DNA from: Cephalotus follicularis
Taxonomy: Eukaryota > Streptophyta > Magnoliopsida > Oxalidales > Cephalotaceae
Length of the DNA: 64,000 nucleotides
Assembly (NCBI GenBank): GCA_001972305.1
Contig: BDDD01000062.1
Location: 992,901 to 1,056,900, forward strand
Direction of reading: 5' to 3'
The notes beneath the pieces are model-generated. The model searched no databases. It had not been told where the DNA came from and worked only from the letters and a program-made list of their open reading frames with translations. A program made the position numbers and the translations under genes. This document shows positions 10,507 to 62,902 of the stretch, one piece after another. The stretch's first letter is position 1. Every line of letters begins with the position of its first letter.

Positions 10507-10551
10507 GATTCTGTATGGCTTTTCGCTGCGCTTCCCACAGACGGTGTCAAC

Positions 10552-16875: not shown

Positions 16876-16878
16876 ATA

Positions 16879-18745: not shown

Positions 18746-18748
18746 TAA

Positions 18749-26558: not shown

Positions 26559-27044
26559 TGTTGATGCTGAAATCAACTCATCAACAGTACTTCACGTGTA
26601 GGACTTTGATTTGTAGAGGAAACGTTGCAGATGCTCCGAGAATGAATGTTTGATCGTCTTCCCTGCACACAAATAACAAACTGACCGAAGGACCAGGAGG
26701 TTTCACTCCTGGGGACTCTCCGTTGCTTAAGTCAGCCAGTGTACAAAGAAGGCAACGAAGGTTATTTAAGTGTATAAAAATGGTGGACCTGTGTAATGTG
26801 TTCGATTCTCATATTTATATGAACTCATTGTAACTGATTTGCTTGACTTGTGGAGATGATTATTGTACCCCTAAGGAAATGTCGAGTATCTCGCCATTTC
26901 CCTGATTTGGCGCTGGAGCGTTATTATGCGTTATCTTCCCAGATTATGAACGCACGACCACGTGTCTGTAGTTCTATATAACACTTATCTTGTTTTCCCG
27001 AAGACACGTGGCAGTATTTTTAGTGTAAGATTTTCCCCATATCA
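26559..27044 (-). repeat. LTR of the Tat-lineage element (3' in coding sense)
   Basis: Begins TGTTGATGCTGAAATC and ends CCCCATATCA. Close to the 38400-38885 LTR but with scattered substitutions. The start shares its first 20 or so bases, in diverged form, with the LTR of the 6385-11130 element and with the LTR at 51230-51710. Confidence 0.92.
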
Positions 27045-27554
27045 TATGCCTCCTTAGTCTTCTTTTTCTGGGCTTGGCAGAGGAAAAAGACCATCTATGG
27101 CCTGACTTGACTCTGAGCAGGACTATGATATGTTAACTGAGCCTGTTTTCGCTATTATGCCTCCAACACTCAGCCCACTTTCGTCATCAACTTTAAGAGG
27201 TCGCTTGCTGCACGTTATCTCTTCTTTTATAGCAACTGATTGGACGGGTTGATCTCAACCATTTAACCCCTCTGTGATCCAACGGTCTGAAAGCAATCCC
27301 TAGCCCTTTAAAAAAGGCACTACCTTCTTAGAGAAGTTTATTTACGCTTCCTTGAATCTTCAAAGCTCTTACCCTTTTTAGGTTTTCAAAATTCTCTAAT
27401 TCCCAAATTACTATTCGATCTTCTTTCAAGTCTTCATCATAAGAATCTCTGGTGAAACTCTTTTCTGGCCTTAATTTCCTTTAAGAAACTGTTCGGTCAT
27501 TCCTAGGGATTATTTTGGTTTTTTATCCTCTCTCTCTCTCTCTAGAGACTCCCA

Positions 27555-29903
27555 ATGGCTATGACCAAACAAACTTCCAGACAAGCTAACGATCCAGATG
27601 TGGCCAGCCGCCTGGTAGGAGAAGTGACCCTTGTCGAGCGTCCTCTCGGTGCCGATGAGGACATGGAAGCCGCAGCCGTGGGTGCCCCTGATGTTGGTTC
27701 CGCAGGGACGGGGGTCAAAGTTTTCAAGACTCACTTTGACAAAAGTGTGCTCCGTCCCGATAGAATGAAGGAACTGGCCAAAAAATATGGCTTCCCGGGG
27801 AGCTTGATTTATTCGATTCCCAATGATCCCAAGGAGTTCACTGAAAGCAAGCCTGGCCTCTTCCCGGTGTTTGTAGATGCTCTAGAGCATGGACTGAGGC
27901 TGCCGATTCTGCCTTTTGCCATTTCCATCCTAAGGCATTTCAAAATCCACCCCTCGTTGTTCCAGCTGCAATCATGGGCCTTCATCATAGGGTTTTTGGT
28001 GAAGTGCCTGGAGTCCGAGGTGGTTGCTACAGTAGAGTTCTTCAAAGAGTTCCACATTCTGGCGGTCTCCTCAGGCAAATGTGGGTGCTACTTCAAGTCC
28101 TGTCCAGGCCTGACTATGAAGTTGTTGGTGGAGCCCACGAAGTCTATCAAGGGCTGGAAAAGAAGGTGCTTCCTAGTCTGGAATCTCCCTGGGTTCACCC
28201 ACTGCCCATGGTCGGACACATTGGACATCCAACGCCTTAAAAGAGGTCAAAACTATCTATAGCTGAGAGGGCCGACCTGGCCAGGCTCTCCGCTCTGGAG
28301 CTAGAGGGGGTGAACCATACTGTATGGGAGGATCGCCTTCGCCGGGTTGGGCTAAGCATGTCCTTGGGCCGACGATTCTGCTTGGATAATGAGGATCATC
28401 TGAGAAGAACCTGAGGCTCGGCCCATGACCGAGGAAGAAAGCTATATAAAGCCTTCGTCTCCTACACTTTTAACTTCAGTATTTCTTTTATTCCTTTATT
28501 ATTTTTTGTTGTGCTTTTGATTCTGTGCTTTCTGTGGTTCTCTGCAGCAATGGGTCCTCGACGCAACGTGAATGACATCCTGAGGGTCAACAAAGAGAAG
28601 AGGAAACAAGTCGTTGTCGAGGGATCAAGGCAGAGAGAAAAAACTGTTGAGGCCGAGAGGAGGTTGCCGCTGCTTCCGCTGTTAAGGAGAAGACTGACAG
28701 GGGCAAGCGGCCTATGGAAGAGCGTCCCCCCACTGTTCTTCCTGCTCCTCCGACAAAGAAGCACAGAGGAGGGAAAGAGGCAAAGAGCTCTTCTCTCGGC
28801 CTACCAAACGCTCCTCCCGCCACAAGCTCTCGGGATCGAATTTAGCCGAGCGCTCCTCAGAATGTTGACAAGATGATAGATGAGCTGGATGCTTTGGGTA
28901 GCTTTGACTTGAACTTGAACACTCCTGGGGATCCCCTGGAACTCAGCCAGCTATTCATCCTTCCGTCCGAGATCAATGCTAGGAAAGGATGGAGCCATGA
29001 GATGTTAGTAAACCATTGCATTCAGAGCAATATTAGGGTAAGTGATCTCTTCTGTCTCTTTTCAAACACATTCTTTGCTTTTCCTCTAACACCCATTTTT
29101 CTCTGATAGACTCTGAATGATGCTTAATTGATGGTGGAAAACTTTGAGGCCATCATTGAGAAAAACAACCAGCTGAGGGGTGAGGTGGCCGAGCTCAAGG
29201 AGACCGCAAACATGGTCAAAACTCGGCTGGAGGAGGTGCTCAGGGCCCAGGAATCCATCTCGAAGGAGAAGAAGCAGACCGTTGAGGCTTTAGAGAAGGG
29301 GAGGGCGGAGAAGAAGCAAGTGGAGTGGGAGTTCATGCGTGTTGGTGATATGTACCATGCACTGGAGAAGAAATTCGAGGGTTACCAGAGCAGGGATGAA
29401 GTTCAGATGAAGGAAGCGGTGGACAAGGCCCTTGAGGAATTCAAGACTTCAGATAAATTCTAAACCATAGTAGAAGCTGTTGTTGAGGACTTCAAGGCTT
29501 CCTCGGCTTTTGATGATGAAGTATTCAAAAAGTCTACTGAATACTTCCATCGGGGCTTCTATTCCTGTCGGAACTGGATTTCATCTATTCATCCAGAGGT
29601 TCCTTTGACTGGCATCGTTTGCTGCCTGACTGCTGATACTTTCGATTTCTATCCCGATGGGATCGAGGCGGAGGAAGAAAAAGTTGGGCTTGCCCTAGGA
29701 GAGGAAGCTCGTCCTCCTTGAGAAGAGGACGAGGCATAGAGAACCGGTCCCTGGATCTGGTTATCCTATCCTCGGATCCTATTGTGGCCCCTTCTTCTTT
29801 GCCACCTTCTTCAGAGCTCGTTGCTCCTCAGCCTCCTGTTTTCGAACCCTTTACTGCTCCTTTGCCAGAGGATGAACATGAGCCCTCCCCTCCGGAGTCT
29901 TAG
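27555..29903 (+). pseudogene. Antisense gene of the Tat element (gypsy-type PF04195-like protein)
   Basis: Reads opposite to gag-pol. The first block, 27555-28262 (MAMTKQTSRQ..., then KELAKKYGFPGSLIYSIPND, HGLRLPILPFAISILRHF, IHPSLFQLQSWAFIIGFL), matches the plant 'putative gypsy type transposon' domain as I remember it. A frameshift near 28250 interrupts it. The second block (28549-29903) has a basic start, an SFDLNLNTPGDPLELSQLF segment, an intron-like GTAAGT...AG (29039-29109), and a strong coiled coil (29130-29460; NNQLRGEVAELKE...). It ends near a proline-rich tail, with AATAAA at 29961. A CT-rich leader (27525-27545) precedes the ATG. Such extra antisense ORFs are known in Tat elements. 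The function is unknown. A relative is at 44463-47758. Confidence 0.75.
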
Positions 29904-42955: not shown

Positions 42956-44462
42956 AGGAATGGCAACGGGGAGGGGTGGGGAGGATTTTGTCATCCCTGC
43001 CCCCGTCTCGCCTATTGGAACTTCCCCCCAACCCCGCCCCGCCAATGGGGATTAAAACCTCCACCCGTCCCTTCCCTACGGGGGTAATATCTTCCCCGTA
43101 TTTGCCCCAATCCCCGCGGGAGAATCCCTGCGGAAGTTTCTCTTCTCCCTGCCCTGTCCCCGCCCCGCATAGACCCTGATCCAACCTCCGTTGACTGAGC
43201 CCCGACCCCCGACCCAGCCACAGCCCCATAGATATATATTAAAAATTGTTAATAGGTGATTTGAACTCAAGACCTCATACATCGAATTAACATATACAAC
43301 CACTAAGCTGGTAGCTTCTTATTTTTAAAACTCACATACTATTATACTTAAAGTTTATATATATATAATAAATACATATTACAAGAAACATTAAATAGAT
43401 ATAATAATTAGAAATCTTAGTGATTAATTGATATACCATTGAATATAATCATAAACATAACCTTCATGGTCGCATGTCATATCTATCATTATTTTTGACA
43501 CATGTCTGATGTCTATATTCAATAATTTTCTTGTAATATAATTTTGAAGATGAGAAATTTCAAATTGAAATGTTAAAAAAAAAGGGAAAGGGAATATAAT
43601 TTACAATATTGGGAATATTTATTAAAATCAATTAGTAAATAGTTATCGTATTCAATCAACAACACTCGGAAGAAAAAAAAGAGTCAGTATATATTTTTTA
43701 GTGAAGAAAAAAGTGACTAAGAATATATGTTCAATCTAACAAAATAATAAAGTATTTGATTATGTTTGATATGACATATAACTTAAGTGCTATGTCAATC
43801 TTAATTATCATACTTAAGATTAATACTTTATAAATCTAACACTTCAATAATTTGATTTGATGGTTTAATTATATAAATCATGAACACCAATTTTTAAATG
43901 AATAAAAATATAACTTTTGCATCTAGACATAAAAATTTTAACTTTATATGATTTTCTTATATTATGTAAAAGGTGTATTAATGTAGCAAATACATATAAA
44001 TATCATATTTGTTTGAAAATTAGTAGTTAGCACGATTGATCTCCATGATAAAATATAAAACTGATCGATTGATTTATAAAATATCAATCATAAGTACAAT
44101 ATGAGGCGAATGAGTACAAACACCTAACTTAGATGCTATGTAAAACATAATTTTCAAGTCTCTCTATATGCAAAATAAACCCACAGGTTTGCTTTGAAGG
44201 TTATGTTTATGATTATATTCAACGGTATATCAATTAATCACTAAGACTTCTCATAGCATGATTATATTATTATTATATCTATCTAATATTTCTTGTAATA
44301 TGTATTTATGTATGTATGTAAGTGTATAAAAATGTAACATATATATATAAACTTTAAGTATAATAGCATGTGAGTTTTAAAAATAAGAAGCCACTAGCTT
44401 GGTGGTTGTATATGTTAGTTAAATGTATGAGATCTTGAGTTCAAATCACGGGGGCGGGGCGG
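42956..44462. repeat. Large inverted repeat with GC-rich hAT-MITE-like ends
   Basis: Left end TAGGAATGGCAACGGGG begins a G/C-rich tract (42956-43230). Arms at about 43256-43475 and 44197-44451 are reverse complements (for example GTGATTTGAACTCAAGA...), around a 720-bp AT-rich loop. The right arm is again bounded by a GGGGCGGGGCGGGG tract. The right end stops abruptly at the gypsy remnant, so the element is truncated or fused there. Open frames in the GC-rich part look spurious. Confidence 0.75.
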
Positions 44463-47400
44463 GGTGGGGCTGGGAGAAGACAAACTGTCTCTCTCTCTAT
44501 CTCCACTGGGATCTCCTTTGCATCGTCTAAGACATCTCTGCGACCTCGGGACATACTTAGCCCAACGTCGCGCATATGGTCCTCAATTATGGTAAAATTC
44601 ACCTCCCCGGGCTCCAGCGTTGACAGTTTTGCAAGGTCTGCCTTCTCTGCCTCATATAAAATTGATCTTTGGTTAAGGCGTTGGGTATCCAACGAATCAC
44701 ACCAATGGGAGGGAGTGAAGCCAGAGAGATTCCTTGTAAGGAAGTACCTCTCCCTCCAGTTCTTGATAGATTTTGTAGGATCCACCAACAGTTTATTGGT
44801 CAGACCAGTGCGAGCCTTAAAGTAATACCCGCGCTTTACATGAGACACGGAAAGGGCATGAAACTCCTTGAAGAGCCCCACCGTAGCTGTCATCCCTTTT
44901 TCTTAGCATCTCACCAAGAAGCCCATTATGAAGCTTCGAGACTGCGCTTGAAGGAGTGAGGGATAAAGTTGGAAACTCCTCAAAACCGCAATAGCGAAGA
45001 GGTGTACAGGAAGTCTCAAACCATGCGAGAGAGCATCCTCAAAAACCACAAAGAGGCTAGGTCTACTCTCTGTGGCCTCCTTGGAATCTCGGGGAATGGA
45101 TATCGTCAAGCCTCTGGAAAAACAGTATTTTTTAGCCAACTTCTCCACTTTTTTTTGCAGAGAAGTACACTTTTATCGAATGGGTCCTAAAGACTTGGGT
45201 CCAGCTCCGGAAGAGGCAACCTCAGGACCGCCCTCTGCGACAATATCCATGGCACCCTCTGAGCCGAGAGGACGCTTGGCAACTGTCACTGCCTCAGTCA
45301 TGCTGACATGCTCGGACCCAGCCTAGCTAGAATCCGTCGTGCCCACTACGAGGCCAAACCTCCCATCAGAGACTCACCTTGTAGGTTCAGCATAACAGAG
45401 TTTCAGAAATACATTTTTAAGCAGAGAATCTCTTTAAAACATAAAGAAAAACAGAAAGTTTTTTGAAAAACTTGAAAATAATTCTAACTCTTAAAATTTT
45501 ACGAAAATCAGGCATGTAGTATTCGTTTATCGGACTATGCCCCCTGTAAATAAAAACACAGTTTATAAATCCACACTCCCGAAGGAGGAAACAGTTATAA
45601 AATGGGCTCAGCCTTCAGCAGATCACAATTTAAAAGCAGAAAACAAATAATGGGTTGGGCTCTGCCTCAACCATATTATCAAAACTTAAACCTGAATAGG
45701 GCTCAGCCCTTTTAAACGAAACTAAAATATTTATATAAAAAATATAAGAAATGCAGAATTTAAAACATTGATGCAGTAATGCTATGCATATGTTGACTCT
45801 GGTAGGCATGCCCTTTGTGGTCTCACCTCAGCAGACTGACTGACTCCAGCTGACAGAGCTCAGCAGACTAACCTGTCAGAACTAAAAACAGAAAATAGAG
45901 GAGGGGTTAGTCCACAGGACTAGTGAGATGGAACAAAAAGACTCCGCAGAGTTTTGCTCACATATAAAACATCCTTGCATAAGAGATATAACAAAACTGT
46001 AAAACAACTGAAACAGCGTTTCAGAAACAAAATCAAAAGCAAAATCTGATTTATAAAACAGATATAAAACAACTTAAACAGAATATAAAATCAAAACCAA
46101 TTTATAAATCGGTATTTTCAGAAATCAGCAGAAAAACCAGATCAGATAACCAAACCAGACTATTTCTTTCAAACAGATTCAAATCCTCAGATTTTTCATA
46201 CATATTATAGTAACAGAGTTTAAACTAAAAATAAATATATAGAGATGTCATGGGTCTATTAGGTAAGGTTGACGCTTAGGCCCCGTTGGACCGAACTTCC
46301 AGCAGAAATAGTGGCAATGACACCGTTGTGTCAAAGCATCATAACAGAAAGTCATACACGTGTAGACAGTGCCTCTCATGGGCATCAGAAATATAAATAA
46401 TACAATACCGAGATCACCATGCATCTAAACATATTTAAACAGATTCAGTAGATACAGAAAACCGTCAAAACAGATTCAACAGATTTCAAAACAGATTCAG
46501 ACAGATACAGAATTCATCAATGTTTCAAAACATACTTAAAATAGATTTCAAACAGATCAAGAATTCATTTTCTTATCAAATACAGATATATCTGAAAATA
46601 ACGTCATACTATGACTATCATCTTGCGAGCGTTTGAAAACATTAAAAGAAAGTTTCAGATATTAAAACTTAAACATTTTTCAGAAACAGAGTAAATCCAA
46701 ACTCATTCAGATACGGAAATAAACCAATGAAAACGTTCAAACATTCAAACTATTAAAAAGAATTTCAGAGTAAAAGGTTTAAGAAAAGCGTTCAACTCAC
46801 AGTACAGACGAGCGAGTCTCTTGACTGGTCGTCTCCATGGCCGACCTCAAAGGCAAGATCTCGAAAGACGATGAAAGGGAGCACAGAGTCCGAATCTCGA
46901 AGCTGAACCGGAACGGATCACGCCTGGTGCGTTGGAGGACAAAGATCACCGATTTGGGGCGCGTTGGTCACGGCGCTGTGGCTTTTGGCCGGAAAGTGCG
47001 CGTCTAACTGCGGTTGACTTCACCGTCGATCTGCGCTACCGGCGTCGTCATATGTCGGGGCTGGTACAGTTCAAACGGCTGCTATGCCAGGAGTCCGAAT
47101 CTGGGCTCACCTTGCCGTGACGGTCACCGGAGATGCCGGAACGACGCAAAACATAGGCGGAGAAAGAAGGGCTTCGTGCGCGCGAACGACGCGGTTGCCG
47201 GTGCGGTGGTGGGGCTCGGTGCACTCAGGAGACTGAGGCGGTCCCGCCGATGCCTTCGCCTGTGTCAGGTCAGCATTGACGCTTGTGGCAGGAGCAGAGA
47301 GAGTGTGAGAGAATGGGAGAGATGGGAGAGAAACGGGGGGGAGAGAGAGAAAGTCATAAAATGAAAGCATTTTGGCATTTTCTTTATATATTCAATTCAA

Positions 47401-47758
47401 AACGGACTGGGTTCATCCATAATTAAACCGATACGGACGAAAATTGGATATTTAGGACATACCACTTGGCCTATTTTCTGAATTCAGCAGCAGTTTCAGT
47501 AAAACATCATTTAAATTTTTTACAGCAGAGAAAACTTATGTTAGGTAGAAAACCATCAAAATGAAATCACATTAGTAAAATTTTTATTAATATCGTGATG
47601 CATATGTCATGAGAACTAGAGAACGGACCAACTGCTAGACAGACAGACAGAAAGCCACGTAGCCTCACAGACACAGACTGTACTAGGACACGGATGTCAC
47701 ACATGCGGCATATTTCTGCTGGGGTAGCTGGTCTGGAGGTTTGCTTAACTCTAGCCAT
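44463..47758 (-). pseudogene. PF04195-like gypsy accessory gene, split by a solo LTR
   Basis: ATG at 47758 gives MARVKQTSRPATPAEICR, resembling the start of the 27555 gene (MAMTKQTSRQ). After the inserted LTR the gene resumes at 45303 and runs through EKLAKKYCFSRGLTISIPRD, HGLRLPVHLFAIAVLRSF, a gap with frameshift or intron at about 44900, then LFKEFHALSVSHVKRGYYF and DPTKSIKNWRERYFL. It ends at 44463 against the inverted repeat, lacking the coiled-coil half. It shows the gene family independently of the 27555 copy. Confidence 0.8.
45304..47701 (-). repeat. 2.4-kb solo LTR inside the gypsy accessory gene
   Basis: On the minus strand it runs TGTGACATCCGTGTCC to ...GAGCATGTCA. CATGC flanks both ends on the plus strand (45299-45303 and 47702-47706). 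No internal element is present. Minus-strand features include a TATA-like TATATAAAGAAAATG (about 47384) followed by a CT-rich run. The same LTR family begins at 63142. Its GC-rich part yields open frames on both strands that I do not regard as genes. Confidence 0.88.
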
Positions 47759-47989
47759 CTGGAAACTTATGAAGAGAGAGAGAAAGAATATGAGAAGCTA
47801 AGAAAAAACCAAGAGACGCCCTGATCAGTTTACACAGCAAATAATAAAGAGCGACTCGCCTAAGAATTTGAAGAGAAGTTTTGAAGAAAAGTTGTTTGAA
47901 GATCTGGAAAATCGAAAAGCTTCATAGAAAAAAGAGCCTTGAAAATTGAAGAAGATTAGAGTAAGGAAACTCACTACAAAAAACAAGCC

Positions 47990-48440
47990 TTTTGAAACGG
48001 ATGGAATCCGTTTCAAAAGGCCTATTTTTTCGTTTCAAAAGGTCAATTGAAACGGTTTTGAAACGGAAAAATGGAATTTCAAAAAAGTGGCGTATCAATA
48101 GCCTTTTGAAACGGACAAACCGTTTCAAAATGGTACCTTTTGAAACGGTTAGATCATCCGTTTCAAAAGGATACCCTTTTGAAACGAATAGAAGCAACCG
48201 TTTCAAAAGGGTACCCTTTTGAAACGGAGGACCCAAACCGTTTCAAAAGGGAACCCTTTTGAAATGGTAGGCCCGTTTCAAAAGGTTTAGAAAAAAATAA
48301 AAAAAATAAGACCCTTTTGAAACGGTTGACATTAACCGTTTCAAAAGGGTACCCTTTTGAAACGGTTAGTCCGTTTCAAAAGGTTTTTAAAAAAAAATAC
48401 CCTTTTGAAACGGTTAACACAAACCGTTTCAAAAGGGTTT
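47990..48440. repeat. Palindromic subterminal array (CCGTTTCAAAAGG)
   Basis: About 20 half-sites alternate as TTTTGAAACGG and CCGTTTCAAAAGG with spacers of 4 to 20 bp, so neighbouring sites form hairpins. A smaller set is at 50785-50895 near the other end. By analogy with En/Spm these are likely transposase binding sites. Confidence 0.85.
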
Positions 48441-48869
48441 TAAAAAAATAAAAAAAAATCATTTAAATCTTTTATAATCTGATTTTTTTATTAAAAAATA
48501 ATAAAAATATATTATTATACAATATTATAGACAACAAATTATTTTGCCTAAATGTATAAACGAATAATCATGGTAAACAGACATTATAATTGGGAAACAT
48601 ACATTGTATCGAACCAAAGCACACATTGCATCGACTGAGCTACAATCGTTATATCTCGAATTAAATACAATTTCTATATATTATTGTACAATATTATAGC
48701 CAACAAACTATTTTGCTTGAATGTAAATAAACATCGTGAGCATAAAAGTATCAAAAATCAAAATACGATACAATTAATTTATCAACTACTTAAATCTTGG
48801 CAACTAACTTTTAACAGTGAAAAAGCTGACTATAGAACTCTGCAGCAAGAGCAATTTGATGAAAAGAAA

Positions 48870-49003
48870 CCAACCTTATCCATACGAGCTAGATCAGAGA
48901 TAATTATCAGAACATCCAGCACAACCTCCCTTGGACTAGAAGAATCAAGCAACATTCAGGATATGGCTGCTAAATCCCATAGTACACTTCTACAATGAGT
49001 AAT
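48870..49003 (-). pseudogene. Captured exon fragment, FUSED/TIO-like ARM-repeat segment
   Basis: The minus strand reads LWDLAAIS, a stop, then MLLDSSSPREVVLDVLIIIS and DLARMDK, ending at a GT splice-donor-like site. From memory this matches the ARM-repeat tail of the plant FUSED-type kinase TIO. It is one exon with a stop, with no start and no kinase part. Assignment is tentative because it rests on one short exon. Confidence 0.45.
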
Positions 49004-49489
49004 TGGTAAGATCATGGCTCACAATACCTTAGTAGAGAGCTGTAGTTGGTTGTTGACCAATAGAAAGCATGGGGAAAAGGAGAATGCACAAACAAAAAGG
49101 GATGCAAGCAAGGAAGCAAGCCTAGTCAAGCTGCACCCAATCAACAAACAAAGGTAAATACAATTTTATCTGACATATGGATGTCATGTTAGAGGATCAT
49201 AAATCTCAGCAAGATCAACAAAACATAAGGGGAAATTTTGTTTTTTTGGAAGCAACATCATCCATTAAGGTAACCTGAATAGAATCTTTTAACAAAATAA
49301 ATGCACCAAACAGAATAACAGACTTGTATGTCCCTTCAGTAAACCATCAATGTCCTCAAAGGAGTAAACCATCAATGTCCTCAAAGGCTAAAGGAAGAGA
49401 AGATGGAAATGAAATAACAAACATATTTCCTAGCTGAAGAGAAAATTTAACTGCAAATGAACCACACAAGACTGAACTGCAACAAAAGC

Positions 49490-50460
49490 TTGTTTGAAAA
49501 TTTCAAATGGGAAGGCCTCAATAGGTATATCATAAGGGTATTGCTGCAAAATGGAAAAAAAATGTTGAAAATGATGTTGGGTGACGATCACAATCACTAA
49601 TTACTAAAGTAATATACCGCTATGATAGATTTTCCCAAATCCCGAACCCCCCACCAAGGATCGAATCCTAGTCTTCCCAATAGTAATGCAATGCATTTGT
49701 CATTAGGGTGTTCCCTTGGAGACTACTAAAGTAATATAGCCTAGACAAAAACTGGAGGAAAAGTTTTTAACATTAATAAAAGCAAGAATATGACCTGGAA
49801 GAGAGACCCAGCCATAAACCAGACAGTGTCAAGCTCATTATACTCTCGTTTGATTCCTTCAGCCCTTTCAAGAACTTCAGCCTGGTTCATAAAATTTAGA
49901 AATAAATTTTTTGAACCACTATTTATTAGTTAACTTTATAATTGTGAGGAAAGCGCGTAAATAAATAAATGTATCAGAATTCATCTCCAATTGAAAAAAA
50001 AATACCTTAGTGGGGCTACCAGTGAGAGAATCCGGTTCAGCTTCTGACCATAGAAGTGGAGATTCCACAGCCATCTGGCCTCTCCCCCTTTGGCGATCCA
50101 GCTCTCTAATATATGGATACCAGAACGACTTCTTTCCTTGTTTCTTCTCATACATTAGATACAATGCCAAGCATGCCAGTTCCAATAATTTGTTTGTGGT
50201 CAATAGTTTAGCTGTACAAACCACCAAGCCCAAACATATTATATAGCTTAAACACATACTTTTTTTTTCTTCTTTTCATTCATCACACCCAATTAGCCAA
50301 AATCCAAAATTGAAACAAAACAATGAAAATTAGGACCAAAATGTAGCAAAAACTGAGCTAAAGAAAGCACCTTTTCAAGGGCTTCAACTTCAACGACAGT
50401 TTTGGTATCAAGCCCATTTAGGTTATCCTTCACAACCTCTTGCGGGGTATTAAATCAAGG
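49490..50460 (-). pseudogene. Captured exons of a plastid SET-domain protein (pTAC14-like)
   Basis: Minus-strand exon-like blocks in order: PQEVVKDNLNGLDTKTVVEV and EALEK (about 50450-50373); ELACLALYLMYEKKQGKKSF through RELDRQRGRGQMAVESPLLW to GSPTK (about 50195-50008); AEVLERAEGIKREYNELDTV and WFMAGSLFQ (about 49883-49797); and QYPYDIPIEAFPFEIFKQAF then VAVQSCVVHLQ (about 49546-49455). GT/AG intron borders are retained between them. I recall this series from pTAC14/Rubisco-methyltransferase-type SET proteins of chloroplasts. The SET core and both gene ends are absent, so it is a captured middle part, not a gene. Confidence 0.65.
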
Positions 50461-51229
50461 CTAGCTCGTCTTCTCTCTTTGAACGGATGACGGTGATGGC
50501 GACGTTGGCGGAATTGCCACAACTAGCCACTGTCCCCCTTTCTCGCGCGCCTTTCTCTCTTCGTCGATTTCCCTTTTCCTTTTCTTTCTCTGCCGAACTC
50601 TCACTCTTTCTTATCTTCTTGCTCCCGCTGCCTCTCTCTTTCCTCCGCCTCTCTCACTGTCTCCTCTTCAGCGACGTGTTTCTCCCTCTCTTGTTTCACT
50701 TCTTCATTTTCTTTCTTCAGAAAAAATGAGAGTTAGGTCGAATGATTATATATTTGGGCATTAGCTATTTAAAACAGTAAATATCTACCGTTTCAAAAGG
50801 GTATACCCTTTTGAAACGGACAAAGCGACCGTTTCAAATGATACCTTTTTGAAACGGCCGCGTGATCCGTTTCAAAAGGTTGCGTTTCAAAAAGGCTGTT
50901 TTTTTGTAGTGACTTCTCCAAGAAGGAGAAGCGTTTTAAAGGGCTTTAGTTTGATTCCAGACCATGAGATCTATGCGGGATCAAACGACCTAGATCAGCC
51001 CATCAATCAGGTGCGAGAAACTAAAAGACCATGCGCAACAATGAAAATACGTGGACGGGAGACATGCTCGTCTTGCCACGCATCAATTAAAGTTAGAGCT
51101 GGGCTAAAAAGCAAAGCCCATAAGCCAAAACATACCTAATTACTTATTAAAGGTCTGCTCAAAACAAGAACACCTAACTAATGCTTTTCCCCCTCTACAA
51201 AGAGTAGAAAAAGTAGATCGTGGGGCATA

Positions 51230-51710
51230 TGATATGAGAAAAATTCATGCATTATTTGAGGTACTGACACGTGTCATTAAAACCCACAAATATTGGCAAA
51301 ACGTTCAAGTTCGTGGTCATTATGAGGGAGGAAACGCCTCCATCTCGTAATGAAGAAATGGCTTGGAATCTCGGCCAATTCCCAGGGTCCAGTAACCTCC
51401 ACGATGATGCTAGCAGTTCAGAGACGTTATAGCTAGGTAAAGCTATAAATACCCCCAAGAAAAAACTATGCAAGGGTCGAGCAATTTTCCATTTACACAT
51501 ACTACTTTCTTTGCACTCAACTAACTTAACCATTGGAGGGTTATCGGGAGTAAAAACTCCTGAACTTTTGACAGTTTGTCTTCTTTGTGTACAGGAAAAA
51601 CTAGAGAACCAAAGAACTAATACCTTCTTCGAAGCATCCAACGCGTTTCTCCCAACAAATCAAACATCTGCACGTGGAGGACTGTTGTGTATTTGATTTT
51701 AACATCAACA
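51230..51710 (-). repeat. LTR of the third gypsy remnant
   Basis: Plus strand starts TGATATGAGAAAAATTC and ends AACATCAACA, the complement of TGTTGATG...ATATCA. Internal CACGTG and the overall 481-bp length match the 486-bp LTRs of the 26559-38885 element in diverged form. The far LTR is missing, so no target duplication can be tested. Confidence 0.75.
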
Positions 51711-53240
51711 AATTTTAAGAGGGCAAAAAAGATTTTAAATCAAAAGAGAAACCAACGTCTACACTTTAATAAGTATAAAAATTAAATACTAAATCTTAAT
51801 AGTTGACAAAAATTGATGGAATTGAGCGTACATTTTCAATATGTATGTTCTCCACTAATCATCGATCGAAACTAACAAGAAGTATTTTTTCTAAGCACCT
51901 TTCCTTTTCGTAAGGACCGTTATCCGAAAGCCTCCAAAACAAAATACATTAACAAACGAGTTCCTTTCTCTCTATCTCTCTTTTTTTGGTAGAAGGCTTT
52001 TTAACCAAAGAAATACTGATATTATACAAAAAAAAAAAAAACAACTTTAATAACAATTTTAAAAAATTCTTATGAAGAAAATGAAATATAAAATTAAATA
52101 ATTTACTCATCTTTAACTCTTTTAAAAATGAATGATGAATAGTTATTGGCTATCGTTTTTATAACAAATAAAGACATTCAACAATATAAATAAAAGTACT
52201 ATTTCACTCTACACCGGTGTGAGCAGTCCCTTCACACCTCTCAATATTTCAATAATTTTATATTGATATTTTACAACTCTAACCATTCAATTTAATGTTT
52301 TATATATGTAAATCACTTTTGTAAATTGTCAAATCAATTAAATATCTATATCTATTTTATTTTTTTTATATTTATATAAGATATTTCATCGATTACATAG
52401 TTTCACAGTGATATTTTTTATAACTGTTGAATTTTTTTATATAAATATATAAAAATGAAGTATTTATAATTATCCAATTATCTTAAAAATTTATAGTAAT
52501 AATTTATATAGATCAAAAATTAAACTAAACCATAAAATTTATAAAATTTTATTTATAAATTATTTCACACTGAAATGAAAGGTAATATTCTTCTGTAAAT
52601 AAATTATTCTATCTTAAAACATATTATGTCCATACGCAAAGTTTATTCTATAATGTATGTAATTTAAAAAGATTAGAATAATAGAGGGGGTGTATATTAC
52701 CAAACACATACTGCCACGCACCTAATTTGATCTCATGTCAGGCAACCCTAAATTGAATCAAGAAGATATCAAACACAGAGAAACGCGTTCCAAAAGAGCC
52801 CAGACCCATTATTTCTCTCTAACGCTCTGGTTGTCGCACATCGGAGTATGGGTGGCTACTGACCGGAAGTGTGGGCCGTTGCTTACCGGAAGGGATTCGC
52901 CGACTATCGGTGGCTACTAAAGAGAGATTCGCCGACTTTTAGTTGCAGGTACCTCTTTTCTCTGTTTTTTTCTTTTTATAAAAAAAACCCTTGAGATTTA
53001 AAGATTTAACAAAATTTATAAAAATAAGATCTGAGATTGATCATATTGTAAGTACTGATTTGTTTTATTGTTCAAAATAATACAACCAAGTTTTTTCGTT
53101 TCTATTAACATAGAACAAATTCTGTTTTAACTGTTTGTTTTTTGATATATCTTTAGCATAAGAAATCTGGTTTTCTCTCTTTAATTCTGTCTTAGGCTTT
53201 AAGACCAAAATAGCATCATATCCAAAAGTGTTTAGCGGCG
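51711..53240 (+). promoter_or_regulatory. Upstream region and possible 5' UTR intron of the splicing gene
   Basis: 51711-52680 is AT-rich with nothing recognised. From about 52730 base composition rises and the sequence looks like transcribed leader. A donor-like TTGCAG|GTACCTC at 52948 and an acceptor-like site before about 53200 (TCTTAG|GCTTTAAG) could bound a 5' UTR intron of roughly 250 bp, ending shortly before the ATG. This is inference from splice-site appearance only. Confidence 0.4.
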
Positions 53241-56200
53241 ATGTACAACGGAATAGGATTGCAAACCCCTCGAGGGTCGGGGACGAACGGGTACATACAG
53301 ACAAACAAGTTCTTCGTGAGGCCAAGGAGCAACAACAACAACAACAGCGACAACAAAGGGTTCGAGGCAGGTGAAGGGATGGCAGGAGTCACTAAGAAAC
53401 CCAACAAGGACATCCTCGAACACGACCGTAAGCGTCAGATTCAACTCAAGCTCGTCATCCTCGAAGACAAGTTGTCCGAACAAGGTTTCACCGATGCTGA
53501 GATCGCCGATCGCTTGGACGAGGCCAGGAAGACTCTCGAGGCCGCCGCCGCTTCTGAGGAGACTGGTGGTCCCTTGGCCGTTATTGTTTCCGAAAACAAG
53601 TAATCCATCTCTATCTCAACCTTTACTCAAGTATTACTTTATTTGGGTGTAAATTAGAAATTATATATGTGACACTAGATGAGGGAGATACAAAGTCGTT
53701 TACTTTTATGTAGGCATAGTGATTAATGATATTACTGAGATCCACACCTTTAGTACCTGTAAGGAGCCATCGATTATGTACTGAATGACAATAAAAAAGT
53801 TTGTAGTTTAGATTCTGATGAGTTTATCTCAGGCTTCTCACATAAGAGGCATTTTGGAGGGTTAACTTTTGTGATTTTGTCATTTATAGCCCATTTCTGT
53901 ATCATTGAAAGATTAAGCCCATCGTTTGGTGTAAGCTTGTCGATTTTTAATTTCAGGTCTGACTTGCAGACTATTGCAAACATTGTTTTTAATCCTGAAA
54001 ATTAAGGTTGCAATAACCAGGAGCTAGTTAATTAGGCACACATATATTTATTTCTCGGCTGAATCTCTTTCAAATAGGGTTCATACCCCACCCAAATTGC
54101 CTTTACTTACAATGAAACTGATGTTGCCTCGGTAGAAAGCCTTGATCTTTTGAATATTTTCCTTCTAAAGAGTTACTAGAATACTGAACACAGAAGGTAT
54201 TGCCTTTTTAATATCTTGTAACAAATGCTAATAGTGTTAACATTGTAACAGTAACATATACAGCCTGCTTTTGGAGGCCGGATCATATTCTTTGCTAGTT
54301 AATTCAATGGTGTTTTGTCGGGCCATGCACACAATTTTTCCCCTTTGAAGCTTGCTTAACATAGTTTAAATTTCTTCTGTGAAACTTTAGGAAAAATTAG
54401 CATAGAAAATATGGACCTTAGAATAGCATGAAGAACTTATATATGTAACATTAGACAATTGTGATACATCATGTTAATACTTTGAATTGTAATTTGTTCT
54501 TGTGGTTGCGTCTACATTCTGTCGTGTGATTTTAATCACTTTCCAAACTTTGAAAGCTTAGAAATTTTTGTTATTGTGTTATTAATTTGATGCACTAGAC
54601 AGCTACATTGATGTTCAAACTTTGGAAGCTAAGATTTTTTTTATTGTTTGTGTTATTGTATTGATAATTTGATGCACTGGACAGCTATATTGATGATGAT
54701 GGTCTATGATGGAAGGATTCTACTGATGTTTGTTTTTGGTGGTTTCTCAGGTTTTCAGATACACAGACCCACCAAATCGCCGCTAGGAAGGAGAGACAAA
54801 TGGAAAAATTTAGAGATGCTCTTGGTCTTGATTTTTCTGAGAAGAAGGAACAAGGTGGTGAAGGGAGTGATGAGGAACCAAGAAATAGAAGAAAGAATAG
54901 CCTAAATGATGCCATACCTGAGCACACTTTTCTGGATAGAGACTTTGGGTGGAAGAAACATCTGGAAACTGAAAGGGGTGACAAGAACAAGGCTGCTAAA
55001 GATGCTAAAAGTAAGAAGGAAAGCAATGAAAACAGAAGGCATGGGGATGACTCTTCTGATACTTATAGCAGTGGCAAACATGGTAAGAGGATTCTAAAGA
55101 AGCACCGTAAAAGTAGCCGTGAGAGTGATCGTGATGGGAACGCTGGCAAGAAGAAGAAAACTTTTAAAAAGTACAAGAAAAGGATAAGGATTGATAGTGA
55201 GGATTCTGATGGCTCGACGGATGATGATGCTGACGTTGGCAAGAAGACGGAAAATTTAAAGAAGCACAAGAAAAGTAGAAGACATGACAGTGAGGATTCT
55301 GATTCTGCCACTGATGATGATACTGTTGGCAAGGTCACTTCCAGAAGGCAAGTTCAAAAATTTGGAAAATCTAGTCGGAGGCATGACTCAGATGAGGATT
55401 CCGGATCTGGTGAAGGCTTAGACAATGGCAGAACTCAGGAAGGGAAAGAGCCAATGATAACTCGGAAAAGGGTCGACTCTGATAGTGACTCTGATACCCG
55501 GATGGCAAAAAAAGGAAGTCATTATGAGAAGCGGAGAACTCAGCAAAGTGAAAGCCGTAGGATAGAGAGCGATGATTCTGATGCAGAGCAGCGGAAGAGG
55601 AAAGATGATAGATTTTGGGAAATCAACAAAGGCCATAATGTGGACAGTGAATATGATCTGGGCAAAGTGAGAAAGCATAAAAAGGAGTCAACGAACAGGA
55701 GTCGTAGAAGGAATTCTTCTGATAGTGATAATTCTGACTCTAGCAGTGATGAGGAGATGGAGATGCATCAAAGAAGTAAGAGGCCTGATACCAATGTCAA
55801 TGGCAAAACAACAATGGGAAGGCCAAAATCAGTTGAAAGGAAGCCTGTTTCAGGCAGTGACATTAGTAATAGCGACGATGATTCAGGCAGCAGTGCCAGT
55901 GATGAAACACATGAAAGAACTGGGAAAATTAACATAGAGAAAAGAAGTGGGCATGGAGTTGATTTGAATAGCAGAGGTGCACGTATTGGCCATGGATCTA
56001 GGCTAGAAGAAGGAGAGTTCAGGTCTAGTGTTGTTGAATATGATGGTAGAAAGAGAAGTATTACAGATAAATCTACCCATGGAAGTCAAGATACGATGAG
56101 GGGTAAGAGGAAACTCGATGATGAAAACAGGGAGCAGCAGCCAGAGTCAAAGTCAAGAACTAGGGTTATAGGGAAAGAGACCGAGTATAACAGAGATCAT

Positions 56201-56620
56201 CAGGTTGATAGATCAGACTTGAATAAAGATGGTCAGAGGAGGGATGACACCTGTGGTTTAGATATATCTAGAGGGTATGATGATGAGAAATTAGCCCGTG
56301 AAGGCAGAATTTATCGCAAGAATTTGGAGTCACAACGTGAAAGTAGGAGGAATGATCGGGATTATGAAGATCACCGAGGGGGCAAGAGGAGCTATAGAGA
56401 TGAGGAGGATCGTAGGGGGAGAAAGCATGAAAGAGATGAAGAAGATCGAAAATATAGAAGGCATGGAAGAGGGGTGGAAGAAGAGAGAGGAAGTAAAAGT
56501 TATGAGAGGGACACAACGTTTGATCATTCTAAGAGACCTAGATATGATGATTATCGGTCTAGTGAGAGAAGGTATGCAAGTGATAAACATGCTGATGATA
56601 AGGTCAGACTTCAAGACTGA
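53241..56620 (+). CDS. CWC21/SRRM2-type pre-mRNA splicing factor (cwf21 domain)
   Basis: Two exons, 53241-53599 and 54751-56620, joined at AA|G in phase (GT/AG intron of 1151 bp), giving 742 aa. The N-terminus MYNGIGLQTPRGSGTNGYIQ is the hallmark of the Cwc21/SRRM2 family, followed by a cwf21 domain (residues about 57-100; HDRKRQIQLKLVILEDKLSE). Residues 120-742 are a long disordered, highly charged tail rich in KKH, SDSD and RD/RE stretches with RS-like dipeptides. In yeast and humans the N-terminal region contacts Prp8 and Snu114 in the activated spliceosome, so a nuclear splicing role is expected. A further splice near the end (GATAAG|GTCAGAC at about 56600) is possible. It is the intact member of the segmental pair; copy A at 16879 is truncated. 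Confidence 0.9.
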
Positions 56621-58492
56621 CTTTGCTGGTACTTTTGGAACCACTGGATTGCTGGTAAGTTCTTCAGATCTGTTTAAATTTATATTCTGGTATTTACATA
56701 TCTGAAAGTTGGTGTAATTTGACTATGTTAATATTTCTAGCCTTGGGTACATGTTTATATTATCGTACTTAGAAAATATAAGAGCTCAACTAAAGTATGC
56801 CGTTCCTACTGTAGAGGGTCCAAATCTGTAGTCTAGTAGAGTTAAAATTCAGCTGCATTAGATAACACTTGACATCGAGGAAGTACTATAACACTTGACA
56901 TCGAGGAAGGACTCTTAAAGGGGTAGGAAATATCAAAACAATTTTCTTTTGTGCTAAATATGGAGCCTTAGGCTTTTAAATCATTGTATCCCAGCATCTC
57001 ATATGCGATATCTACCTGAGTATTTTAATTATTGTTATAGTGCTTACTTATCATTGATTCCTATGATGTTGGATATTGCGGTTTCTTCTTCTTGATTGAG
57101 TTTAAATGGGGTTTCTTTCAGTGCTCGTTACATCAAATGGGGAATTGCCAACTGAAAGCTGAACTTTCAAGCAGGGCCTAGGAAGGCTGAGGATGCAAAC
57201 TATATTGCTTGATGTGTTGTGTGTTTTCGCTTTTGTATGATTAAGACATTAATATTTACCTCCATGAGCCGTATTTGTTCCTCCCCTTAGAATGTGTTCT
57301 TTTATTGTGTATTACATTTTGAAATATTGAATATCCTTTTGGTAAAGCCTAGTTTCGTGATCTTTAGAGATGTGCCGTTGCCACTTACAGGCCAACAGAG
57401 TTAGTGAGCCAAATGGGTGCATTGTTAATTAGGCTGTTGCAAGCTTGTACTGCTTTATCGAATTTATTAGTCTCGATTGCAAGGATGGACTCTTCCATTG
57501 CAGAATATGACGCAGAGTATCAGCACATACTGATTCCTCATTTATTTACTCATCCTGAATTCTAGCATTGATGATGCTTGCGAAGGAAAGCATGTGTTTA
57601 ATCTGGACAGTGAAGGGTTATATATGCAATCTACAAGCCATTTTTTTGACAAACTTCACTAGCTTAGTGGTTCTGCAAAAAATTTTAACGATGGATACTT
57701 GGGATGGAGATAATGTAGCAGGATTCCTTTTAACATACACCCCCATTCTGGGACCTTCAGCTTACATGCTTTTTATGTTGTCTTCAAACCCAAGGCTCTC
57801 CCTGAAATACAGAATGTAGTATCTTGGCTTCTATTCTAATTCACTATTTAAAAATCTGGCCATCATATTGTTGTCACCAATTGGGGTTCCTCTTAGACAA
57901 GTTCTTTTTTACTTCTTTATGTTTCCACTTGGATCAGTTATACTTGGGAGACACCCTTTGATTCCGATTACACCAACCATAAAAGAAGACGCAACTTCCA
58001 AATAGCCGAAACAATTTATAATAGATTCATAGCATCTGACAAATTTTGTGGGTGGCCTTAAAAAGCTAATAAATCTCTCATTCGATATTGAGACAGGAGG
58101 TGGAAACAAAAGCAAACAATATTTTTTTTCTTCCCTTGATTGGTGGAACAAACCATTAGAGACTGTCAAAGATCTCCTTGTCTATACTGTTTTTTTTTTT
58201 GAACGAAATTGTCTATACTGTTTAATAGTATATCTTTTTGTAATGTTGTTATCAGACAGTGATTTTTTTATAACTTCATTAGAAGTTAAAGGACAACAAA
58301 ACAGAAAGAATGTTACTTCTATTCTTTTAAGTATAAATGTCACAATGTCCTTATCATCTAGAGACTAAAGAATGTACAAATATCTACAGTGAAACCTTAC
58401 ATAGTGATGAATTTAATTGAAAGAATAACAAATGACAATAGAATGAATGAATCCTGCGTTTCAATAAATTAAACTGAAATTCTTTAGTTACT
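56621..58492. other. Downstream of the splicing gene, non-coding
   Basis: Contains the probable 3' UTR and intergenic sequence. From 57070 it matches copy A (17905-18745 and 19290-19849). A 9-fold T run with an inserted ACGAAATTG block at about 58190 is specific to copy B. No frame is conserved between the copies, and I see no gene. Confidence 0.55.
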
Positions 58493-59371
58493 TTACTTGT
58501 TTCCATCAGCATCCACATTGATTATGGTAGAGGCTCTCTTGAAGTGGGTTGGCACAGGCCTAAGCCAACCTCGGCCCCGATCATGTCCTTAGTCAAGAAG
58601 GGTGAAACTTCGTCACTTGATAGGCTGCGTGACCATCTAACCCTTTTAGCTCTATTTGCTCCGGGACCATAATTCTTGTATTCACCATAATATACAGTAC
58701 TGTTTTGCCAAACACACAACATGTTAAACATGTCAAAATATATAAGTGGCACATGGAAATATTGGGTTTTAAAAAAAATGAAGATACTACATATATATGA
58801 TGATACCTTTGCTGGCTTTGGTCTCCCCAGTCATCCCATCCCTGTGGCAAAATAGCACTAGGCATGTAAGTTAAAGCAAAGACCACCCTAGAGTAAGTAC
58901 CCCATGCCTCCCAAGGAGGGCAGTTCCAAGACCAGTAATCTTGCAACCCAAGAAAGTGTAGCCAGTATCTTCAGATGGTGACTCCCTTTGTTGAGCAGTG
59001 ATTGCTCCACTGCTCTCAGAAACTGAATATGGCACCTCTGCATTACCATAATATATAGTGGTATTAATGGTACTCTTTTATTTGTGTGCCTAAACAAATT
59101 CAAATTGAAACAACTCGCATGCCACTATATACATATTGTTCTATCTTTAAAATGTAATCTAATTAACACTCACTTCGTATAGAGAGGCAGCATTCCCGCA
59201 TATAAAATCAGGGCTCCTTCAATGTAGCAGTTGCTGTAATAATGTCTCCCTAAATCATCTAGGAGAGTATCTTGATAAGAAGAAATGCTACAACCGTAGA
59301 ATGCACCTCTATCTCCCGACACCCCTAGTGCCACAGCTTTTCCAGTTGACTCGAAGGTATTCTACAAGAAA

Positions 59372-61026
59372 TTGATAAGAAGAAAGGACCAGGTTTGCAG
59401 TATCGGTATGAGTCACGAGTGCTTCGGTCCCATTGTTCTTTCGTAGCATTGACCTCTGTTAGTAGACTCTTATTATTGGTTACATGACATGTAGCTCCAG
59501 TGTCTAACAACCACTCTGAAGAAGCGTTGGCCCTGCAATCCGTCATCATTGCGATAAAGTTGCGAGGTTCAGGCTTGCCCACCAACATGTGAGCTTCCTT
59601 ATGTGTTGTGTCAGCATTAAGCACACCAATATTCTCATTGTTCATCTTAGACCTCAAGTTCTCGAGATCAGTAACTTGATGAGTGATTTCCATGTCTTCA
59701 CAGAACTTAAAATCTAAGAACTTATCCACTATGTGAGATTTGGATAGTTCCTCATCTTTTCGGAATTGAACGTCTAAATTGTCCCACATTTCCCTAGCAG
59801 TCTTAAACTTACTATAGATTTCTGCAAGACGGTCTGATAAACAATTCAATAAGTAGTCTCTACAGTAGTCCTCATCACTTAACCATTGAGATTCAGAAAC
59901 ATCTTCAGTGGTGCCAGAAAAAGTACTCAAAACAGTATAGAATATTTGATTGGATTTCAACCCGAATTGAGTCTTACGTCTCCAAGCGTTGTACTCCGAC
60001 CCACCAAATGATTGTAATTTAGCCATCTCAAAAAGAATATATTTATCCATTTCAGTAAATAAATAGATTAAATAATAAGTAGAACGAGTGCACCTGAATT
60101 TTCAGCATAAACAGCAACCAAACGGAGCCTCGAAGTCTGAAAAAACAGTAAAAATCAGCCTCACTCTCACTGTGCGCGTGTGCACCACACGCGCTAGCAA
60201 CTGCCAGTCTCTCCCACGCATGCGTGCGCCACATGCCCGTCTTCTCCTTCCTTCGCTCGACGCAGCAGGCGGAAAAGAAGAAGATGGTGATTCCAGCGAT
60301 GATAGACGACGCCGACCTCGCAAACGGACTGGCGGACCTCCAAGAGTCGACAACTGGACTCCTATGCCTGAAACGACGTCACCAGTGGCTGGAAAAACCG
60401 ATTCAAATCGCGGCGGCTACACAACCAAGCTCCTTCGTCCGGCAACGGTTCAACGCCGCACCACCTGCCAAAGAACCACCATGGAAAGACGAGTTCAACG
60501 CGACCGCTTTGAGCCTCTGACGTCAACTCCAGTGGCTAGAATAGGAGTTCAAAAGTTGCGGATCGCTAAAGCCTCAGGACGCTGTTCTGGATGATTCCGA
60601 CACCGGATCAAAAATCCAACACCACCGACAGATTCCTCTGGTCGAGGTGCACCAGACGGTGGCCGGAACAAAAAATTACTTTTTTGACCGTTTTACTCCT
60701 GACGTGAATAATGACAAAACTGCCTCTGTCATGGAACAACCAAATTGCACGCGAAATGAGACATCCATCAAATTAAGATAAAAACACAAAATAATGCTTT
60801 AAGATTGTTAAGGTTTTAGACTGTATTGACAAATAAGTATGTATGGCTTAAAACATTACACATTCAAGTTTGGAATACTCTGCAGTGTTGCCTCCAGCTA
60901 ACACACTTATATTTATACTAGGGTCTTACCTTATTATGGGCTCTAGTCCACATAACCCCAAATCTTAGGCCTTCACTTATTGAGTTTATATTAAAACATA
61001 TTAGTTAGATAGTTAAGTATCTAACA
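59372..61026 (-). mobile_element. Truncated copia retroelement in pectinesterase B intron
   Basis: The minus strand starts TGTTAGATACTTAACTATC at 61026, an LTR-like start. Gag begins MDKYILFEMAKLQSFGGSEY (about 60050) and includes SKFKTAREMWDNLDVQF. It passes directly to protease sequence with EWLLDTGATCHVT (about 59520), so the middle of gag including the zinc knuckle is deleted. Coding ends against pectinesterase intron sequence at about 59372. The 60100-60650 stretch is a GC-rich leader. No second LTR and no target duplication were found. Confidence 0.7.
59480..60050 (-). pseudogene. Copia gag-protease remnant
   Basis: Carries SDEDYCRDYLLNCLSDRLAE, HIVDKFLDFKFCEDM and QVTDLENLRSKMNNE of copia gag, then the protease active-site region WLLDTGATCHVTNN. 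The frame stays open by chance into pectinesterase exon 3, which should not be read as a fusion protein. Confidence 0.75.
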
Positions 61027-61609
61027 GATAATACCTTAATTGTGAGAAATCGTCCAACAAAATCAGATGCCAATATGGAGACTGTTGGAGATTCATAGAT
61101 ATCCCCATTGTCATTCCATGTAATTACGATGTTAGAGGCATGCCTGCCACTCAATGTGATGAAGGGCTTATCAGCAGGCACGACAATCTTTTCTCTGCTT
61201 AATTAAGCACAAAAATAACTTAAAATTAGAACATATATAAGAATCCCTCAATCCAATCAATTTGTCAAATAACCAAGGTGTCAACCCATAACTCGTTTTT
61301 TTTTTTCTTTAACAAATTACATCACATTCATTTGCACCATGCATGCGCCTAGGAATAGTTTAAAACTGCATGCCAGCTAGTCCACGCACACACAAACCAG
61401 TATGTTACTGACTCAACCCAAATGAAAACAAGCTCAGAGTTATTAGATGGAACAGCATCAATAGCATCTTGTATCTTTCCATAATCTCCTTCGCCAGACT
61501 GATCAACCTTTATGAGAATGGCAATAGACGTATTCACAGCATCGGTAGCCATGATAAAACCATATACAATTTGAAACAAAATGATAAGTAAATAGCCATA
61601 AATCTTCAT

Positions 61610-62902
61610 TGGTGAAGGGCACAATAAAAAATTTAATTAAACAAATGGTTTAGTGAAGGAATGAAACAAAGTTATACTATATATTAATTTATATACTGAC
61701 TACCAATATGTTGTTATGACCACGTTCAATTTGTCGGTGGCTCGTGGCCGATTTCTTAAAGCTGAAGTTTAAATGTTGATCTATCTTAAAGTGGATATAA
61801 ATACATTTACCTGAGAGGAAGAGGGAAAGAAAATTATTATACTATTAATTGCCAGCAAATCGTGCTTAATAATAATCTGTTTTAGGTAAATGTACTCTAC
61901 GTGTTATATGGCGGCGTTATGTACTATGTGATTTATGCTTTGAATTGTACATGACTTTGCACGTACGTAGTAGTAATCTCACAACAGCACAGCCACCACC
62001 CAAAATCTCAAGTTACTTAAAATGAGGAGGCAAGGCAACTATTAGTTTCTAGTTAAAGACGTTATTTGAAACTTTACATGCACGCATGCAACTATCTTAT
62101 TCAAGTATCAAACAGCTGGAAGTCAAAAATGTACATGGATTTATTTGGATGGATAACTTAAATCATTCATTTCTTATATAATTTAGTGGAAGAGATGTAT
62201 GCTACTATATAAAAGGATAACCAAATAAATCTTTTTTTGAGCTGAAGATTGGAGAACCCAAATCTACAATATAGTTCAAATTCTAAGATAAGATGTTATT
62301 TGAGCACTGAACCAACTCAATATGCCAGAAACAGGTGAAACAATAGCAGCTTGGAATACTGGTTTGTTAATTTATTGCATAAGCAACTAAGTAGATATGC
62401 TTTAAGATTAAGATTAAGATTAAGAGGGGATATATTAATAGTTTAGACAAAGAATTGAGGATCTATTTTAACAATTAATCAATACCCTTTGGTCAAAACT
62501 ATTGCTTAGAGAACCTCGATAAGTCAAACAATCACAAATGATATTTTGATAATTCTATTATAATGCGTTTATGACACGTCATTTGTAATTAATAATATTA
62601 CTCTTAGATAATACACCTACTTTTTTCCTTAAATCTATTCAATTAATTAATTATCAATTACAGCAAGTAAGATTATCCTTGTTCCAGTGTGACCGAGTTT
62701 GCCTATGTTAGGAATCCCAGGAATAAATCCCAATACTTTGTACTAACTTCATTTTGAGTACTTTTCTATTTCATGATTATAGTATTGTTGTGAGTTGTAT
62801 TAATAAATGAGAAATAAGACAATGATGGAATCCTAATTGTATTAGTTGCATAATATGATAAGATTTTGTTGTAATTGCTTGTTTTAATTTGTGACTAATG
62901 TG
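61610..62902. promoter_or_regulatory. Upstream region of pectinesterase B
   Basis: Matches 25438-26558 plus 38886-39053 of copy A, with the Tat gypsy insertion site left empty near 62735. The AGATTA hexamer repeat is at about 62401-62425. A duplicated GTACTCTACGTGTTATATGG block of copy A (25725 and 25785) is single here. No gene. Confidence 0.6.

Follow-up and report, generated by a model that had tools for sequence, protein, structure and literature searches.

A Pack-CACTA-type element with probable captured pieces of two unrelated plant genes in Cephalotus follicularis

Results

The element, its ends and its subterminal repeats

The window analysed here, a 64-kb stretch of DNA from Cephalotus follicularis, contains a CACTA element bounded by CACTACAAAAAA, a perfect 12-bp sequence that is found inverted at the two termini and has no other perfect match in the window (Table 1). 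These 12 bp belong to a longer, imperfect terminal inverted repeat (pair I22) of 26 nt and 88% complementarity, the arms of which take in four flanking bases. The terminal repeats start with CACTA and ACT abuts both ends, as expected of the 3-bp target duplications of the CACTA superfamily. A match of three bases taken alone would be weak evidence of a target duplication; here a related, apparently unoccupied site carries a single ACT (see below). The clean CACTA ends and the ACT duplication claimed in an earlier note made from the sequence alone were thus both recovered, with the ends at exactly the two positions given.

Inside the termini, the motif CCTTTTGAAACGG is repeated in direct and inverted orientation over approximately 450 nt on the left and 110 nt on the right, the subterminal arrangement typical of CACTA elements. 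All 26 copies in the window, allowing up to two mismatches, lie inside the element; 100 dinucleotide shuffles of the window yielded 2.06 matches on average and never more than 5. None of the 26 falls between 48437 and 50787, i.e., the interior contains no relic of ends, and no further copy of the element ends or of the motif was found elsewhere in the 64-kb window. Read as RNA, 48090-48450 is predicted to form a very stable hairpin, at -188.8 kcal/mol versus an average of -77.0 for 100 shuffles (z -20.3). Between the left array and the first gene-like piece lies a 63-bp direct repeat (48494-48556 and 48663-48725) with 83% identity between its copies.

Table 1. Features of the CACTA element and its surroundings, from left to right (positions are those of the window).
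Feature	Position	Strand	Size	Remarks
Left flank, part of putative target gypsy-like retrotransposon	47725..47971	-
Target site duplication ACT, left copy	47969..47971			sequence; single ACT at related unoccupied site
CACTA element	47972-50911		2.9 kb	ends exact at 47972 and 50911
Left CACTA end CACTACAAAAAA	47972..47983	+	12 bp	perfect part of longer imperfect terminal inverted repeat
Left subterminal array	47988..48436			20 copies of CCTTTTGAAACGG, 0-2 mismatches, both orientations
TIO/FUSED-like kinase exon piece (LLDSSSPREVV...ARMDK)	48875..48952	-	26 codons	GT after; no AG directly upstream
SET-like exon C (QYPYDIP...VVHLQ)	49451..49543	-		acceptor AG kept; TT in place of donor GT
Intron B-C	49544..49794	-	251 nt	GT...AG; holds SINE-like insert
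SINE-like insert	49617..49723		107 bp	perfect 15-bp duplication TACTAAAGTAATATA at 49602-49616 and 49724-49738
SET-like exon B (AEVLERAEG...GSLFQ)	49795..49881	-		acceptor AG and donor GT present
Intron A-B	49882..50005	-	124 nt	GT...AG
SET/Rubisco-LSMT-like exon A (..KLLTTNK...GSPTK)	50006..50211	-	206 nt	acceptor AG and donor GT present
Exon-like block VVKDNLNGLDTKTVVEVEALEK, then GT	50371..50436	-		sequence; no significant match
CT-rich (+)/GA-rich (-) block	50460..50735		~280 bp	sequence; no Pfam match
Right subterminal array	50788..50894			6 copies of CCTTTTGAAACGG
Right CACTA end, perfect inverted copy of CACTACAAAAAA	50900..50911	-
Target site duplication ACT, right copy	50912..50914			sequence
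Right flank, part of same putative target gypsy-like retrotransposon	50915..51710	-

A three-exon piece of a SET-family gene

The larger of the gene-like pieces comprises exons A, B and C, which are consecutive in the native protein and together read as 129 stop-free codons (386 nt in the exons proper, the first codon borrowing its first base). Of 610 candidate proteins in a search with this piece, 427 had E <= 1e-3, the best with an E value of 2.4e-76. The matches are plant proteins, mostly with a precomputed Rubisco-LSMT substrate-binding domain (PF09273), and their names include Rubisco methyltransferase family, N-methyltransferase and histone-lysine N-methyltransferase setd3; the label "SET" is used here because of these names. 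Arabidopsis AT5G14260 is presumably the orthologue. A tblastn comparison placed the blocks at 50212-50006, 49887-49795 and 49555-49451, and the splice borders refine these to the exon coordinates of Table 1. The earlier note had counted four SET exons: the plant SET-family exons are real, but there are three of them and no fourth, so that most of the native protein, about 500 aa long, has no counterpart in the element.

The piece is identical at 123 of 129 residues to each of two Cephalotus follicularis proteins, P0001 and P0002, and exon A is 94% identical to P0002 across 69 residues; a search of P0002 against NCBIfam returned no family. Compared with the consensus of the best 120 of the 427 relatives, the piece differs at seven positions. 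Five of its residues occur in none of these 120 proteins, at positions where 117 to 120 of the 120 agree; as these counts use the best 120 of 427 proteins, they apply to close relatives. Such private changes, five in all and at sites that hardly vary otherwise, suggest that constraint was relaxed after capture, and part of the changes might predate capture.

A TIO/FUSED-like piece

The second piece (48952-48875) encodes LLDSSSPREVVLDVLIIISDLARMDK. A protein search covering proteins of ~398-1267 aa, with a query shared with the block at 50371-50436, produced four matches at E <= 10 among 5.8 billion proteins, and all four are plant ARM-repeat proteins, 83-89% identical to the piece. Three of these had E values of 2.4e-3 to 4.0e-3 and the fourth, P0121, one of 6.0e-13. 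A second matching block behind the 66-bit score of P0121 was considered and ruled out, as P0121 holds the TIO stretch twice. Against the window, tblastn gave E values of 9e-9 to 2.6e-8. Another of the four proteins, P0124, also possesses a protein kinase domain, with NCBIfam returning kinase models only, below the cut-off. In PMC4712874, TWO-IN-ONE, the orthologue of FUSED, is described as combining a kinase domain with ARM/HEAT repeats, and the putative TIO/FUSED name of these matches is an assignment by architecture. The FUSED/TIO ARM-repeat exon proposed in the earlier note accordingly finds its counterpart in plant proteins. That note had also named a lack of plant SET-domain or ARM-repeat matches as a reason to doubt the capture, and plant matches were found for both pieces.

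The TIO match stops at MDK, and the GT that follows is likely a splice donor. The match begins without a splice acceptor, making it likely that a capture breakpoint lies inside the exon.

Introns and splice borders

The statement in the earlier note that splice borders are kept held for six of eight inferred borders (acceptor and donor of A, acceptor and donor of B, acceptor of C, and donor of the TIO piece) but failed for two: exon C has TT where its donor should be, and the TIO piece lacks an acceptor AG. The native intron positions behind this count were deduced from where protein similarity ends. Since introns are retained between A, B and C, DNA rather than mRNA appears to have been captured. 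Intron B-C also holds the 107-bp insert, which lies between two perfect copies of a 15-bp sequence and whose SINE class we infer; presence or absence of this insert in the parental intron might serve to date the capture. Downstream of exon C there is a perfect 25-bp tandem duplication at 49338-49387.

Blocks without an assigned source

Two further stretches of the interior resemble gene sequence. The exon-like block at 50371-50436 is probably what the earlier note took for its fourth SET exon, an assignment that we reject, as the native protein reads LERVLGNETI/AELLTTNK at this point instead. Protein searches with this block found nothing among proteins of ~398-1267 aa or of 114-364 aa (a single candidate in the latter range); the best E value against the PDB was 0.53, and Pfam gave no match. 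Among 124 proteins compared with it, its best match was to the tail of P0002, at an E value of 0.12. Additionally, 22 SET proteins (from the best 120 of 427) align at 50454-50341 with E values of 0.26 to 2.8. These alignments might be counted in favour of a fourth SET exon but are taken as chance, because in their register the block would code once more for residues that exon A already supplies. The block would represent either a third donor or non-coding or element sequence.

The CT-rich block at 50460-50735 gives the impression of a plant 5' leader and could likewise come from a third donor or be element sequence. Two candidate matches in this region were not accepted: 50518-50459 as a SET N-terminus (E 0.39), and the Ser/Leu-rich plus strand of 50590-50706 against P0121 (E 0.004 when the element alone was searched and 0.12 for the window), which looks compositional.

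Coding capacity

The absence of a transposase claimed in the earlier note was upheld within the ORFs scanned: Pfam searches of 15 of the 63 ORFs listed for 47000-52000 matched no transposase family, and the few weak matches were all under the Pfam cut-offs, the best being to Anoctamin (E 0.012). This lack of an encoded transposase is a defining property of Pack-CACTA elements, as is an interior that resembles non-transposon host genes, here the SET and TIO pieces. The longest stop-to-stop ORF entirely within the element is 119 aa. Nothing of note was returned by a Pfam scan of five ORFs from the captured blocks or by comparison of the exon A ORF with the PDB and with plasmids, and no hits came from Rfam, run over 44000-54000, or from ARAGORN, run over the whole window.

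Insertion site

When the two flanks are joined with one ACT between them, they align to 26559-27588 in the same window over 1100 columns, with 60.6% identity, 127 gaps and an E value of 3.8e-55. The alignment is gap-free within about 15 columns of the junction, and the relative at 26559-27588 has a single ACT there. This relative continues into an ORF with a match to PF04195, "putative gypsy type transposon" (E 5.5e-7). At 61% identity, 26559-27588 reads as a distantly related unoccupied site and not as an allele, and the host site of the element is likely to be an older retrotransposon relic. Further to the left of the element, 46924-47705 resembles 63931-63138 at 76%.

Other repeats in the window

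A large direct duplication, 90-95% identical, is spread over the window in pieces (16876-20745 with 55383-59376 and 24846-26559 with 61024-62741). It contains an inverted 98-bp piece (17800-17897 versus 56565-56468), a fragment of a pectinesterase at 20085-20492, and a charged, serine-rich repeat ORF at 54710-56617 for which Pfam gave no match. Direct repeats at 6384-6963 and 10551-11130, 93% identical and approximately 4.2 kb apart, are possibly an LTR pair; between them lie a tandem array with a 27-bp period that is open on both strands (8153-8601) and most of an ORF at 9622-10728 with no Pfam match. Inverted repeats at 5064-5679 and 18747-19260, 13 kb apart and 86-96% identical, carry Ser/Leu-rich low-complexity frames.

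Discussion

Nature of the element

Taken together, we consider it very likely that this locus is a Pack-CACTA-type element with no detected transposase, in which fragments from two plant genes, unrelated to each other, were captured as DNA before the element inserted at its present site. This agrees with the proposal of the earlier note, a Pack-CACTA element with two donors, and is based on plant SET and TIO matches enclosed by CACTA ends and on a related site that lacks the element. Genes of the host are the likely source from which this DNA was copied.

The order of events could in principle be reversed, as the earlier note recognized when it asked whether the genes were there first and the ends unrelated. 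The exons would then be those of a resident host gene or its degenerate duplicate, flanked by CACTA-like ends through chance or a nearby insertion. The joined exons A, B and C still form 129 open codons and are not heavily decayed, which speaks for this explanation. However, this explanation would require the ends, the target duplication, the motif arrays and the read-through of the related site to coincide, and it has to accommodate a gene of which only three exons of a ~500 aa protein are present and in which residues near-invariant among the best 120 of 427 relatives are altered. As a related retrotransposon runs through the insertion point without the element, the gene pieces were very likely not there first, and we regard a resident gene as extremely improbable.

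Assembly of the interior

CACTA elements without a transposase are moved by one encoded elsewhere that acts on the ends and subterminal repeats, and an autonomous relative located outside the element would mobilize this one, which by its anatomy is non-autonomous, in the same way. Its interior was probably assembled stepwise, in two or more captures from donors that were not linked. Faulty gap repair is one published route by which such elements capture genes. For one such mechanism, PMC8978399 cites Rubin and Levy. Fusion of neighbouring elements is described as a capture route in PMC8903248 and PMC13317346. Neither fusion nor gap repair leaves a direct mark in the element. As there are two donors and the interior shows no remnant of further ends, we lean slightly toward template switching during repair of an excision gap, with fusion of neighbouring elements as the other candidate. 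The element would then have jumped to its present site. Once captured, the SET piece probably went on evolving in the manner of a pseudogene.

The captured DNA may instead have been acquired in one event from a single locus where the fragments already lay together, e.g., in an older collecting transposon. The shared strand of the SET and TIO pieces would be explained in this way, and a history in layers is evident from the SINE-like insert and from other repeats. The interior contains no end motifs and no second set of ends, however, and we view a single capture as rather unlikely compared with stepwise filling from unlinked donors.

Whether the element now acts as a gene is a separate question from how it was assembled. 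A chimeric gene that is transcribed and translated could have arisen from the SET and TIO pieces, possibly joined by a third donor. These pieces and the extra block all lie on one strand, most of the inferred splice borders (six of eight) survive, A-B-C is open, and fragments in soybean Tgm-Express1 are described as being spliced into transcripts in the pertinent part of PMC1947982. Against this, none of 15 ORFs gave a Pfam match above the cut-off, the five private changes at sites near-invariant among the best 120 of 427 relatives suggest relaxed constraint, and the insertion sits in a retrotransposon relic. On this evidence a functional chimeric gene is improbable. Any transcripts of the captured pieces would presumably undergo splicing wherever a border survives, and they might contribute to silencing by small RNAs. 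A more speculative view, which we hold only tentatively and think doubtful, is that the element is an exon shuffler caught mid-assembly. It would have drawn on at least three donors (SET, TIO, the exon at 50371-50436 and the leader at 50460-50735) and would constitute a mobile proto-gene in which chimeric transcription is possible, with borders that mostly work and all parts on one strand.

The locus provides one well-delimited CACTA element with two unrelated plant gene pieces, introns being kept in the SET piece, and the window also contains a related site that is unoccupied. In combination with genome, transcript and small-RNA data, the element could help to date the capture and to test siRNA feedback from the captured pieces on their parents; alone it changes no view of the field.

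Comparison with known systems

Pack-MULEs and gene-carrying Helitrons reach the same outcome, the mobile shuffling of gene pieces, but belong to other superfamilies with other ends and chemistry. Both Pack-MULEs and gene-carrying Helitrons are mentioned in PMC1947982, the source for the soybean element Tgm-Express1, which, as described there, carries fragments of five host genes. The claim of the earlier note that gene capture by CACTA elements is known in plants is thus correct. Tgm-Express1 resembles the present element in belonging to the CACTA superfamily and in that its ends enclose exon and intron fragments from several host genes unrelated to one another. It measures 5.7 kb, has five donors and lies in intron 2 of an F3H gene (PMC1947982), whereas the element described here is 2.9 kb long, has two identified donors, which are different ones, and is found in a likely retrotransposon relic.

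The Tpn1 family of Ipomoea consists of non-autonomous CACTA elements that capture genic regions, and in the account of PMC5105172 these share with the present element conserved ends with subterminal repeats, a captured host interior and a 3-bp target duplication, a likeness of anatomy. Further CACTA elements with host gene fragments are described from Chenopodium and grape in portions of PMC8978399 and PMC2528002. The Pack-CACTA elements of Arabidopsis, rice and maize, as presented in PMC8903248, also combine inverted ends and a target duplication with coding DNA in place of the transposase, at times from more than one locus, several loci being reported for maize Pack-CACTAs; such elements are covered as well in a review (PMC13317346), which refers to Catoni 2019. 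Unlike the element described here, with its duplication of 3 nt, the CACTA set of PMC8903248 shows duplications of 5 nt in the sections bearing on it. Set beside these systems, the Cephalotus follicularis element is a clear but ordinary case, which adds other donors and another insertion site to a known kind of element and is not a new kind of its own.
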